DNA of 64,000 bases from contig NZ_WUWM01000008.1 in assembly GCF_009846885.1 (NCBI RefSeq), positions 1 to 64,000 on the forward strand, read 5' to 3'. The stretch is from Paenibacillus puerhi. Lineage in GTDB: Bacteria > Bacillota > Bacilli > Paenibacillales > NBRC-103111. Made by a program: the position numbers and the translations under genes. Positions 13,779 through 55,005 of this stretch are shown one piece after another. Position 1 is the first letter of the stretch; each line of letters opens with the position of its first letter. Below the pieces are notes generated by a model. The model was not told the origin of the DNA and ran no database searches. It was given only the letters and a program-made list of their open reading frames with translations.

Positions 13779-13800
13779 GACTTTTAAATTGCATAGCTTA

Positions 13801-13961
13801 CCTTTCGGGGCAGGGTGAAATTCCCTACCGGCGGTGTTGTACGGCGGCTTCGGCTGCCGTCTCAGTCCGTGAACCGCGCTTCAGGCGCTTGCGAAGCAAG
13901 CCCGTTGCCGGTCGACTCGGTGCAAGTCCGAGACCGACAGTATAGTCTGGATGGGAGAAAG
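13801..13961 (+). promoter_or_regulatory. FMN riboswitch (RFN element)
   Basis: Canonical RFN blocks are visible in order: GGGGCAGGGTGAAATTCCC (13807-13825), ACCGGCGGT (13827-13835), AGTCCGTGA (13864-13872), GACTCGGTGCAAGTCCGAG (13914-13932), ACCGACAGTATAGTCTGGAT (13933-13952) and a trailing GGGAGAAA. Two variable helices (about 13840-13860 and 13873-13910) fill the usual positions. It should repress ribDEBAH when FMN is high. A terminator 280 nt further down is the likely output. Confidence 0.95.
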
Positions 13962-14304
13962 GGGAAGCGGAATCGTGACGATACGAGGGCTTAGTCGATG
14001 CATGCTTTTCATCATGCTCGGCATGCCTGTATGCTGTTCCGTTTTGGGCAAGCTTCCAGGTGCCGAACCTGCATCCGTTGGTGCGGGTGGCTTGGTGCCG
14101 GGCGTCTTGCGTCATACGTACGCTTATTTAAGTGTGCGCCGCAGGGTACTGCTTTCGGCAGCGCCGCGGACGTTTATTCAGCCTGCGCTCGTTTGTTATG
14201 GTTTCCCAGCAGTCCGGACATGTTACGGATGCGTCTTTCTCAAGCCCTTTTTGCCCCAAGCGAAAAGCGGCTTTTTCTGTTTGGAAACAAAAGGAGGGGC
14301 AAGC
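13962..14304 (+). other. Long rib leader between aptamer and ribD
   Basis: About 340 nt of untranslated leader. It contains AGGGCTT (13986-13992), which is complementary to the terminator's left arm at 14242-14248 and could act as antiterminator. By chance or not, the ribD frame stays open through the whole leader back to 13951. No ribosome site supports starting there. Confidence 0.5.
14242..14280 (+). terminator. Riboswitch-controlled terminator before ribD
   Basis: AAGCCCTTTT (14242-14251) pairs with AAAAGCGGCTT (14263-14273) with one bulged base, followed by TTTCTGTTT. It ends 9 nt before the ribD ribosome site AAGGAGGGG, fitting transcription attenuation by the FMN riboswitch. Confidence 0.75.
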
Positions 14305-33900: not shown

Positions 33901-34195
33901 AAAAACTCCTCATTCCCGATACGTCTAGCGTATACAAGGGACGAGGAGCTGATTCTCGTGGTACCACCCTAATTCGCCGCGGGCTCGCGCTCACGGCCTT
34001 CACTGGTCTGCCGTAAAACAGACCGAGAGGGGTAACGGCATCTAGCCGGCTGCATCTACTGAAGTTCGAGGCAGCAACTCTGGAGTGCTCCGCATAGCGT
34101 CTACGTCCGGTTTGCACCATCCACCGGCTCTCTGTACGTTCCGCAATTATGCTTGGTTCCGTCATCGTTTGTCTTGAATATGTCTCTTAAATTTC
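33901..34195 (-). promoter_or_regulatory. T-box leader of serA, serine-type specifier
   Basis: Minus-strand leader with the T-box AGGGTGGTACCACGAG (within 33953-33970), which pairs with the free CCA end of uncharged tRNA. Stem I features include AGAGAG and GGATGGTGCAAACC. The likely specifier is AGC (plus-strand 34087-34089), just before ACTCC; AGC is a serine codon, matching the pathway. The leader ends in a terminator stem CTCCTC/GAGGAG (33906-33948) with a run of five T residues (33901-33905). Confidence 0.9.
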
Positions 34196-52107: not shown

Positions 52108-52386
52108 GTGTCCAACAAAAATATGTCCAAAGACGTATTGAGCGTCGTAAAAAAGAAAACCGGGAAAAGCGTTTCCGAGAAGGACATTCATAAGCTGGCT
52201 AGCGGCGTAAAGCCTTCCACGATGCAAAGCGACGCACAGCTTAGACAACTGATCAAGCAAGTGGCGGGGCTGGTCAATGCTCCCGTGTCGGAGCAGACGA
52301 TGAATGAGCTCATATCCGCGATTAAGAGCAGCAAGATGAACACGGCCAACATGGAGCAGCTGATGAAGATGATCATGAAAAAGTAA
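52108..52386 (+). CDS. spoVIF: Stage VI sporulation protein F
   Basis: A 92-residue sporulation protein related to SpoVIF (YjcC), needed for spore coat assembly in B. subtilis. It is helical and Lys/Ser/Met-rich, with KDVLSVVKKKTGKSVSEKDI and a repeated-looking second half. GTG 52108 follows GAGGAGG. The family call rests on length and pattern only. Confidence 0.78.
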   Translation: MSNKNMSKDVLSVVKKKTGKSVSEKDIHKLASGVKPSTMQSDAQLRQLIKQVAGLVNAPVSEQTMNELISAIKSSKMNTANMEQLMKMIMKK

Positions 52387-52688: not shown

Positions 52689-52982
52689 ATGATTACGTTA
52701 AAGGGACGCAGTATCCAGAAGACGGTAGAGCCAGAGATCGGCTTGACTATTCTGGATCTGGCCATCAAGCATAAAGTGGACTGGAGCTTCTCCTGCACGC
52801 GCGGTACATGCTCCCGCTGTCGCTGTATCGTCACTGAGGGAGGAGAGCATCTGAAGGGCCCGACAGTTGCGGAGCTTGATAATTTGGAGCCGGAAGAGTT
52901 TGAGCAGGGCCTCCGGCTTGGCTGTCAGGCCGAGCTTAGGTCGGCGGGCAGCGTTACAGCCACGCTCAAGCCTTTTTTCTAA
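52689..52982 (+). CDS. [2Fe-2S] ferredoxin, plant type
   Basis: A 97-residue electron carrier. The cluster ligands are visible in SCTRGTCSRCRC (about 35-46) with the fourth Cys in LGCQAEL (about 79). It starts 19 bp after yphE. A mobile-like element is inserted 10 bp after its stop. A second ferredoxin gene lies 1 kb downstream; the redox partner is unknown. Confidence 0.88.
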   Translation: MITLKGRSIQKTVEPEIGLTILDLAIKHKVDWSFSCTRGTCSRCRCIVTEGGEHLKGPTVAELDNLEPEEFEQGLRLGCQAELRSAGSVTATLKPFF

Positions 52983-52992
52983 AGGAAGTAAG

Positions 52993-53276
52993 GAGGCTGT
53001 CGATTCATTGTGGACGGCAGCGCAGTTAAGTAAAGGCTGATCGTAACGGACACCACAGTCGCTATTCCACAAAAATGAGACCTGTTCAAATTGAAACGGA
53101 CACAGACGACCTTACTTACGTCAAAACCGCATAGAATGGGCGGAAATGCACCAAATAGCGTCATCTGAGTCCGTTAGATTTTCAATATCGCGAAAATGAT
53201 GCAAATAGAGACTCTGAGGTCCGTTAGCGAAAGCAGAACGTTTCAACTCAGTTACTCACAATGAATCGACAGCCTC
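52993..53276. mobile_element. MITE-like palindromic element, 284 bp
   Basis: The element is bounded by perfect 20-bp inverted repeats (GAGGCTGTCGATTCATTGTG at 52993-53012 and its complement at 53257-53276). It is flanked by a 5-bp direct repeat GTAAG (52988-52992 and 53277-53281), consistent with a target-site duplication. Internally AACGGAC occurs at 53045 and 53095 and its complement GTCCGTT at 53169 and 53219. Both pairs are 50 bp apart and symmetric about 53135, so the whole element is an imperfect palindrome. It carries no transposase. Confidence 0.85.
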
Positions 53277-53316
53277 GTAAGGATTGCAAGCGAATTTTTA
53301 GAATGAGGATGAGACG

Positions 53317-53946
53317 GTGAACATAGACAAAAAGATATCGATGTCGAAGCGGGGCGAATCGGCCTTGCGCATCCTCGAAGAGACGCTCAGGCCGCTCGGG
53401 GCTGTTTGGGCTGTTGGCGGAAGTACAGGCCTGCTTCTGCAGGGCGTACAGCTGTCGGCCGAGCCCCGGGATCTCGACCTTTACGCAGATGAGGACGACG
53501 CGAGGAAGGTCCATGCCGCCTTGCGCGCATATGCCCTGGACGTGCAGGAAAGAAATGAAACATCCGTCTACCGTTCCCTGCTAAGTCATTATGAGATAGA
53601 CGGAGTGTGTGTGGAGCTGGTCGGCGCATTTGAGGTTCGTGCGCTCGGTAGCGAGTATCGGGTAGACACCCGATACCTGACGGAGTCGGCAGTCAGGGGG
53701 CCTGGGCCGGAAGGCGGCGGCAAGGTTAAGCTGATGCCGCTTGTCCATGAGCTGATATTCAACGTTCTGCGCAAACGACCGGATCGTTACGAGGCGGTGG
53801 CTGCCCTATGCCGGCAAACTGATCGTCAGTCCCATCGGACGCTGCTTGGTGAACTGGCTGCCCGCAACCGGCTATCCGAGCCTGTTCTTCACCGGCTGTA
53901 TGAGCTGCTGGACCGAGAGGAGGACGGAGATGGCAGCAGAGATTAG
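53317..53946 (+). CDS. Nucleotidyltransferase-fold protein, function unknown
   Basis: A 209-residue protein with a minimal nucleotidyltransferase signature: GGSTGLLLQG (about 34-43) followed by PRDLDLYADEDD (about 50-61), as in DUF1814/AbiEii-like and related small enzymes. Whether it is active is unknown. Its last 17 bases overlap the following ferredoxin gene, so the two are translationally linked. The region upstream was interrupted by the palindromic element. Confidence 0.65.
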   Translation: MNIDKKISMSKRGESALRILEETLRPLGAVWAVGGSTGLLLQGVQLSAEPRDLDLYADEDDARKVHAALRAYALDVQERNETSVYRSLLSHYEIDGVCVELVGAFEVRALGSEYRVDTRYLTESAVRGPGPEGGGKVKLMPLVHELIFNVLRKRPDRYEAVAALCRQTDRQSHRTLLGELAARNRLSEPVLHRLYELLDREEDGDGSRD

Positions 53947-54283
53947 ATTTATGCCGGGCGCCGTCACGGTACAAGCCAAGCCGGGCACGACCCTGCTTGA
54001 TGCGGCCAGAAGGGGAAAGGTACCGGTGCGCACCCGATGCGGCGGTAAAGCTGCCTGTTTGATGTGCAAGGTGCAAATTGCGTCCGATGCGCAGCAAGGA
54101 CTTGCGCCGATGAATACCAATGAACGGCTGAAGCTCGGATCGTTAGCCGAGGAGGGGTACCGGCTGGCTTGTCAGGCCAAGGTTAACGGGACGGCCGCCG
54201 TCTCGGTCACCGTGCCGGAGGACCCCCTTAAAAGCGCCGTGCGTCGGCAGCTCGAGCGCCAGCAGGAGGAGGAATGGCCATGA
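53930..54283 (+). CDS. Second [2Fe-2S] ferredoxin-like protein
   Basis: A 117-residue protein with ligand pattern TRCGGKAACLMCKV (about 36-49) and fourth Cys in RLACQAKV (about 79-86), then a charged C-terminal helix. ATG 53930 lies within the preceding gene behind GAGAGGAGGA. Its stop overlaps the yphF start. Having two different ferredoxins around one nucleotidyltransferase gene is notable. Confidence 0.85.
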   Translation: MAAEIRFMPGAVTVQAKPGTTLLDAARRGKVPVRTRCGGKAACLMCKVQIASDAQQGLAPMNTNERLKLGSLAEEGYRLACQAKVNGTAAVSVTVPEDPLKSAVRRQLERQQEEEWP

Positions 54284-55005
54284 TGAAAGGATGGAAGCGG
54301 CTGAGCGCTATGCTTGTGCTTCTGTGTTTACTCGCAGGCTGTATGTATCCGAACGAGCTCCGTAAGGAGAATCAGCTGGCCAGCGGCGAGTATGTGATGG
54401 TCGTGCAGAATGCCATAGACCAATATAAGTCGAAAACCGGCGTACTGCCGATTAAAAACAGCGAGGAATCGACCCCTCTGTACGAAAAATATCCGATTGA
54501 TTTCAAGAAGCTTCAAGGCAAATACTTGAGCGCGGTACCGGCCAATGCATTCGAGAGCGGCGGGACGGCTACCTATGTGCTCGTCGATGTGGAAACGAAG
54601 CCCACGGTCAAGATGCTGGACCTGACCTCGTTCCAGCAAACCCTTGATATCCAGCAGGCCGTCAATGCCTACATGTCGAAGCATTCTTCGCTGCCGATCG
54701 GCGAGCCTGTTGCCCAAGGCTTTCACACGATCGATTTTGTGAAGCTTAACCGCAAGCCGGCGGATGTACGCAGTGTGTACACGCCTCAGGTCAGACTGCC
54801 CTTCCTTCTGCACGACTCCGGCACAGTAACCATCGATTACTCGCCTGAGATCATGCGCTTGATCGACAGGAAGCAGCTTCAGTCGAAGCTGACGGCCGGA
54901 CAGGATTTGCGTGCATTGCTTGTGGAGGAATCGTATTTCGTGCCCGCCAGGTCGTTCGGTTACCGGTGGAACAACGGTCAGCCTGAGCCCATTACGGCGC
55001 CTTAA
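54280..55005 (+). CDS. yphF: DUF3939 lipoprotein (YphF-like)
   Basis: A 241-residue lipoprotein: signal peptide with lipobox LLAGC (Cys about 20), then two similar halves containing IDQYKSKTGVLPI and VNAYMSKHSSLPI, which look like an internal repeat. Its position before spoIVA matches B. subtilis yphF. ATG 54280 overlaps the ferredoxin stop and is 7 nt from AGGAGGAGG; ATG 54283 is also possible. Confidence 0.85.
   Translation: MMKGWKRLSAMLVLLCLLAGCMYPNELRKENQLASGEYVMVVQNAIDQYKSKTGVLPIKNSEESTPLYEKYPIDFKKLQGKYLSAVPANAFESGGTATYVLVDVETKPTVKMLDLTSFQQTLDIQQAVNAYMSKHSSLPIGEPVAQGFHTIDFVKLNRKPADVRSVYTPQVRLPFLLHDSGTVTIDYSPEIMRLIDRKQLQSKLTAGQDLRALLVEESYFVPARSFGYRWNNGQPEPITAP

Follow-up and report, generated by a model that had tools for sequence, protein, structure and literature searches.

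A probable IS1182-type miniature element in Paenibacillus puerhi enclosing a four-site module dispersed in the Paenibacillales

REP sequences have been described mainly in bacteria other than the Paenibacillales, and a REPIN consists of two units. REP and BIME sequences are dispersed, mostly intergenic inverted units that serve as insertion sites for unrelated transposons, and the insertion sequences listed as targeting REPs, in the available part of one account, are IS1397, IS621, ISKpn1 and ISPpu9/10 (PMC1525189). REPINs are described, in the excerpted text of their report, as miniature mobile units of inverted repeats with many copies per genome (Bertels and Rainey 2011, PMC3116915). The other closely related group is the IS1182 family with its MITEs. 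In the accessible portion of a study of its member IS1272, new insertions lay within inverted repeats, and certain members of the IS1182 family are described as targeting palindromes (PMC5678879).

Here we describe an element of 284 bp without a gene (52993-53276) in a 64,000-nucleotide stretch of the Paenibacillus puerhi draft genome, referred to below as the window. It is like the IS1182 family and its MITEs in that a DDE transposase of this family lies between like ends in Cohnella, and like IS1272 in its palindrome-like targets. It differs from IS1272 in that the new IS1272 insertions, as far as the excerpt describes them, replaced the target without a target-site duplication, whereas here the target is kept, with a 5-6-bp duplication in 15 of 26 copies; in addition, a captured four-site module is absent from that part of the IS1272 account (PMC5678879). 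The core of the element shares with REP/BIME sequences the dispersed, mostly intergenic inverted units and their use by unrelated transposons, as outlined in the part of the REP account cited above (PMC1525189), but it is a fixed 183-bp four-site array with mirrored units that do not covary, and no transposase-like family recurs beside it among the 15 largest clusters of neighbouring ORFs. In comparison to REPINs, which are likewise miniature units of inverted repeats with many copies per genome, the units here are surrounded by DDE-transposon ends and a target-site duplication, and there are four of them instead of two. Our main reading, to which we give a probability of roughly 0.85, is that the element is a non-autonomous IS1182-type MITE with a captured core. 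This core belongs to a repeat found across the order.

Parts of the element and its surroundings

The features of the locus are given below, with the strand where one was assigned.

52689-52982, + strand: upstream Fer2 ferredoxin gene, with 10 bp between its stop codon and the element start
52988-52992: left target-site duplication, GTAAG, read from the sequence
52993-53012, + strand: left 20-bp terminal inverted repeat of the probable IS1182-type MITE, GAGGCTGTCGATTCATTGTG; like ends in L181 (Cohnella thermotolerans)
53013-53043: left arm, end to module, 31 bp, from the alignment of 23 own copies
53044-53226: 183-bp four-site module, elsewhere in the order mostly without these ends
53044-53066, + strand: unit u1, TAACGGACACCACAGTCGCTATT
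53094-53116, + strand: unit u2, the first base being A in this copy and T in the copy consensus
53154-53176, - strand: unit u3, TAACGGACTCAGATGACGCTATT
53204-53226, - strand: unit u4, TAACGGACCTCAGAGTCTCTATT
53227-53256: right arm, module to end, 30 bp, from the alignment of own copies
53257-53276, - strand: right 20-bp terminal inverted repeat, the exact reverse complement of GAGGCTGTCGATTCATTGTG
53277-53281: right target-site duplication, GTAAG, read from the sequence
53317-53946, + strand: downstream nucleotidyltransferase-like gene, a weak PF10706 match

The perfect 20-bp terminal repeats, the flanking GTAAG copies and the four AACGGAC motifs at 50-bp spacing that the initial annotation had pointed out are all present in the sequence; the motifs lie on the + strand at 53045 and 53095 and on the - strand at 53169-53175 and 53219-53225, with the symmetry centre at 53135. 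The same annotation had placed the element between two ferredoxin genes, which holds for the upstream Fer2 gene, whereas the immediate downstream gene is nucleotidyltransferase-like and the second Fer2 protein comes only after it. SpoVIF and DUF3939 genes (52108-52386 and 54274-55005) flank the ferredoxin genes. The 23-bp unit pattern, with at most one mismatch, was matched 3 times in the window, relative to 0.54 matches expected and 0 of 100 shuffles that reached 3, and all 3 matches fall inside the 284-bp element.

Between 52900 and 53400, there was no Rfam match up to an E value of 1. Elsewhere in the window, an FMN riboswitch (13797-13966, + strand) and a T-box leader (33934-34174, - strand) scored above the Rfam gathering score. 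DNA similar to the element was absent from both the plasmid and the phage record collections.

Copies, target sites and the source of transposase

A BLAST search of the 6.71-Mb draft genome with the 284-bp element gave 31 matches, some of them whole copies and others broken. Full-length copies made up 23 of the 31 (283-284 bp, 94-100% identity), with a mean pairwise identity of 97%, and the 20-bp end, allowing up to 3 mismatches, was found 53 times in the genome, compared to 0 times for the backwards-read control. Target-site duplications were scored on the 26 own copies having both ends, two of which are split by an IS3-type element. Exact duplications were present in 16 of these, with a length of 6 bp in 9 copies, 5 bp in 6 and 4 bp in 1. 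The 5-bp duplication originally noted is correct for this copy, and among the copies with an exact duplication the length is 5 or 6 bp in 15 of 16.

At this locus, 334 nt separate the ferredoxin stop codon from the next gene. In contrast, the site was empty in all 26 scorable relatives, with an estimated gap of 4-105 nt and the element's end absent; 29 relatives had been fetched, of which two without a ferredoxin in the fetched stretch and one with a distant ferredoxin out of place were dropped. One of the 26 gaps (L273) contains a single unit-like heptamer. No full-length match was reported from the other 98 genomes searched with the element, and P. agaridevorans has a 284-bp copy that is 95% identical. 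The many copies with differing flanks, the duplications and the empty sites are as expected of an IS1182-type MITE and bear out the mobility that had been proposed for the element, with the qualification that 10 of the 26 scored copies are without an exact duplication.

Two interrupted copies, on C8 and C20, contain ORFs that were considered as candidates for the MITE's own transposase and rejected, as they belong to an IS3-type element (orfA and orfB) inserted in the units of two MITE copies (L061, G000:C8:125074-127892, and L062, G000:C20:74961-77614). L061 has the left 226 bp of the MITE on both flanks, in opposite orientations, an arrangement that suggests recombination between MITE copies.

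The copies lie in targets that are similar to a loose palindrome, its two sides being CTAA and TTAG. Among the 52 outward flanks of the 26 own copies, T was present at position 12 in 88% and C at position 9 in 73%, and 27 copies of other genomes gave a weaker form of the same profile (78 and 63%, respectively). TTAG starts at outward position 11-12 in 31 cases within the 52 flanks and elsewhere in 1, and CCGTTA, CTCTTA or CGCTTA half-units start at outward position 8-9 in 24 cases and nowhere else. In 13 of the 26 own copies, a TAACGG/CCGTTA half is in register on at least one flank, which places the insertion at a unit centre, and 9 of these 13 have another unit within 240 bp; for 12 of the 26 copies, a related empty site was present among the fetched own-genome loci. 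The copy at 52993-53276 has a CTAA half only, its own target not being a unit. On the flank profile and the half-units in register, the MITE prefers the centres of loosely palindromic sites, which the units provide. Two further transposons occupy unit centres, namely the IS3-type element, present in two copies of the own genome, of which one is rearranged, and an insert of ~343 bp in two G053 copies, with the 8-bp duplications CATGGTTG and CACCAGCG.

The named genomes were scanned for the MITE end, which yielded 40 stretches from Paenibacillus, Cohnella and an uncultured Paenibacillaceae bacterium. Both ends were inside the stretch in 26 of the 40, giving 27 elements: 25 with lengths of 100-346 bp and two longer ones of 839 and 2005 bp. 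The longest, L181:4125-6129 of Cohnella thermotolerans, has ends that match at 20/20 and 17/20 positions and is flanked by the duplication AGTTT (TAACGGCC[AGTTT]...[AGTTT]GTCCGTAA). It contains one open 571-aa DDE frame with DUF772 and DDE_Tnp_1_6 domains, for which the closest NCBIfam model was NF033551 (IS1182), with an E value of 5.5e-63 and 213 bits, below the equivalog cut-off of 270; on this match, the protein may at best be called a divergent IS1182 member. With L181:4125-6129 as the reference, the non-coding element has ends that match those of an autonomous IS. In the mechanism that we propose, an IS1182-family transposase would recognise the 20-bp ends in trans, move the DNA between them and insert it with a 5-6 bp target duplication.

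The like ends in L181 could also be taken to mean that the element is a simple internally deleted IS1182 element, the interior of which consists of its own subterminal repeats. However, the part in common between L181 and the 284-bp element by BLAST is only 20-22 bp of an end, the other elements with these ends vary in length, with 25 copies between 100 and 346 bp among the named genomes, and the module occurs without these ends and under unrelated ends. We consider this explanation highly improbable. The view taken from the letters alone, that the element is compounded of motif units and is not simply a deleted insertion sequence, was right in direction, in that the core exists independently.

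The L181 protein had 0 matches in the own draft genome, in a search run without a positive control, and the 5 IS1182-family matches in the 99 contigs of this genome are weak (best E value 7e-11). The initial suggestion of a transposase located elsewhere fits the IS1182-type element of Cohnella with its like ends, but the search of the own draft genome gave no close transposase; movement there may have ended, or the source may lie in an assembly gap.

The four-site module inside and outside the MITE

The core of the element consists of units with the consensus TAACGRA-N9-CKYTATT at the offsets 0/+50/-132/-182. A three-unit pattern of this geometry was present in 165 of the 392 genomes of the order (own genome included) and in 33 of 49 genera, with up to 122 matches per strand in one genome, compared to one control match seen (G096). 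In a survey of the class, the three-site pattern was found in 21 of 38 genomes inside the order and in 2 of 360 outside it (G429 and G519). When 99 genomes (own included) were searched with the element, 20 others were found to hold only pieces, mostly of the interior, and many of these loci, when inspected by eye, showed the same arrangement of four units. In G029, G164 and G519, many of the listed units are near-perfect palindromes (TAACGGAAC...GTTCCGTTA), in contrast to the asymmetric form elsewhere.

In the fetched loci, which include related, non-independent copies and were mostly obtained by patterns that fix the spacing, units on the same strand have a spacing of 50 bp in 245 cases and of 51-52 bp in 39; the minor groups at 61-65 bp (46 cases) and 111-115 bp (61 cases) were put down to MITEs nested in units. 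With the same limits on the counts, the offset of the inner pair is 81-83 in 140 cases, 91-93 in 9, 84-90 in 1 and other values in 11, and therefore the 91-93 variant differs by 10 bp, or about one helical turn. The single-unit pattern, which does not impose spacing, listed the same 50-bp pitch. A pattern with a free centre (gap of 64-94), which leaves the inner centre unconstrained and so does not fix what it tests, had a control value of 0 in 30 genomes chosen for many units or modules. A module with a centre longer by ~10 bp occupies an orthologous place in four species (L067, L068, L069 and L072), between methyltransferase-like and glycosyltransferase-like genes, where the module aligns and part of the surrounding spacer does not.

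A profile of 31 modules with <70% identity had T at +19 in 97%, A at +20 in 81% and C at +16 in 77%, as well as A/T runs at positions +29 to +32 and, ahead of u2, AATTC-like bases, all of which are positions that the search pattern does not impose. Purifying selection on the units gave no significant signal among the 23 own copies: the variable sites were 4 of 28 in the strong half-sites and 39 of 152 elsewhere, that is, in the arms, linkers and centre (p = 0.24), and the strong and weak halves taken together were not significant either (p = 0.19).

Naked modules are the rule in other genomes. Among 93 distinct complete modules of other genomes that were not fetched by the end pattern, 89 have neither known end pair. 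Within 200 bp, both GAGGCTGTCG-type ends accompany 2 modules and a single one accompanies a further 3; for a second type of end, CAATGTTGTC, the pair is present in 2 modules and a single end in a further 5. In the own genome, none of the 17 distinct complete modules that were fetched is without a MITE end, and the resident repeat was seen only as interrupted or partial arrays beside MITE copies and as one three-unit match (C6:41392-41524). The second MITE type, with the ends CAATGTTGTCAGGTTAA and a duplication of about 10-11 bp, carries the four-site module in G053 (L151-L156). Modules of the same kind are thus found within two kinds of ends, the GAGGCTGTCG type and the CAATG type. Of the 6 G053 loci, 5 contain the CAATG-type pair, spanning 318 bp in two and ~350 bp more in three that have a further insert. 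L153 has an exact 11-bp duplication, and the duplications of the other loci measure 10-11 bp and are exact or have one mismatch. In L151, a module also lies between GAGGCTGTCGATTAACTGTG-type ends.

The simplest sequence of events is capture by MITEs, although its direction is one that we infer rather than one that is proven, and some naked modules could be decayed MITEs. In this scenario, the module would have existed first and been captured by the MITE afterwards, so that the element now contains copies of its own preferred type of target site.

A different origin of the core, which we think unlikely while giving it real weight, is that the module was an end-to-end unit of another transposon, with u1 and u4 as its ends and u2 and u3 as subterminal transposase sites, and now lies inside the MITE. 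The asymmetric sites do point outward at both ends, 5 of 6 inter-copy alignments in G039 start and stop within ~5 bp of the module limits, and the information content drops to background a few bases outside u1; however, an unsystematic look at the fetched loci noticed no gene-bearing, module-bounded element, and no clear target-site duplication was seen by eye in the printed module flanks. The neighbouring genes also speak against it, as none of the 15 largest clusters among 367 neighbour ORFs from 99 loci is a transposase-like family recurring beside modules. The largest cluster is glycosyltransferase-like (6 ORFs in 5 loci, 3 of which are one orthologous place), one oxidoreductase-like cluster spans 3 genomes, and the others represent the same place in related species or loci fetched more than once, with the names assigned by eye.

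On crude ORF calls, 61 of 69 modules overlap called ORFs by at most 60 nt, compared to 156 of 1160 control windows, and the neighbouring genes are convergent in 20 cases, tandem in 35 and divergent in 6. This mostly intergenic position, together with the use of modules as insertion targets, recalls REPs as presented in the cited part of the literature (PMC1525189) and could mean that the module is a REP/REPIN-like structured element, in which a hairpin, either a long one or one per unit, is functional and is mobilised or bound as such. A single strand of the element does fold better than 200 of 200 shuffles (z about -7), in agreement with the one long imperfect hairpin proposed at the outset, but any long inverted repeat would fold in this way, and the hairpin is best read as a by-product of the inverted sites, the middles of u1/u4 and u2/u3 being no more alike than those of other pairs.

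It was found that the unit middles within one module have a similarity of 0.48-0.53 in all pairings. For the middle 9 bases, the difference between the u1/u4 and u2/u3 pairs and the unpaired combinations was -0.007 (p = 0.35, 58 modules), or +0.005 (p = 0.78, 61 modules) when the redundancy limit was relaxed. The reading as a functional long hairpin was therefore rejected: an earlier mirror-complementarity signal, with z values between 3 and 7 across the units and between 6 and 7 for their middles, for which the control partners came from other modules, mostly of other genomes, vanished against pairs within the same modules. The absence of excess likeness between mirrored middles speaks against pairing between units and would favour four separate recognition sites. 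At a width of 21 bp, a single unit forms a weak palindrome, the fraction of complementary mirrored bases being 0.46, relative to 0.18-0.34 at widths of 20, 22 and 23, a property that is partly imposed by the pattern that found the units and that either a dimer site or a small hairpin would explain. A REP/REPIN would be associated with a RAYT gene (a Y1 transposase), and the 15 largest neighbour clusters from the 99 loci include no transposase-like one. With the lack of an Rfam match and of a recurrent transposase-like neighbour in these clusters also counting against a REP/REPIN-like element, we regard it as improbable. The rigid geometry and the non-covarying middles fit four sites of a sequence-specific DNA-binding protein better than a long RNA or DNA hairpin.

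Significance of the module

We put at even odds a broader proposal, that the 183-bp module constitutes a hitherto undescribed DNA system dispersed through the order. This system would comprise at most ~120 copies per genome, each with four asymmetric 23-bp sites at a 50-bp pitch, read by a putative DNA-binding protein with a preference that varies between genomes (GGAC, GGAA, GAAC or GAAT, with two of these in some genomes). At least three unrelated transposon types would land at the site centres, at least two MITE end types would have taken the module as cargo, and the element in the window would be one such capture. Among the titles listed from an open-access library, in which subscription journals are mostly absent, none was about such a repeat, which is weak evidence that it is undescribed.

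As a MITE, the element is of an ordinary, known kind. The module raises the questions of what keeps four 23-bp sites at a 50-bp pitch across the genomes of one order and why unrelated transposons insert in the middle of the sites. If it is true that a chromosome-organising protein or a repeat-mobilising enzyme binds these sites, the module would be a counterpart of REP/BIME biology outside the usual REP bacteria.
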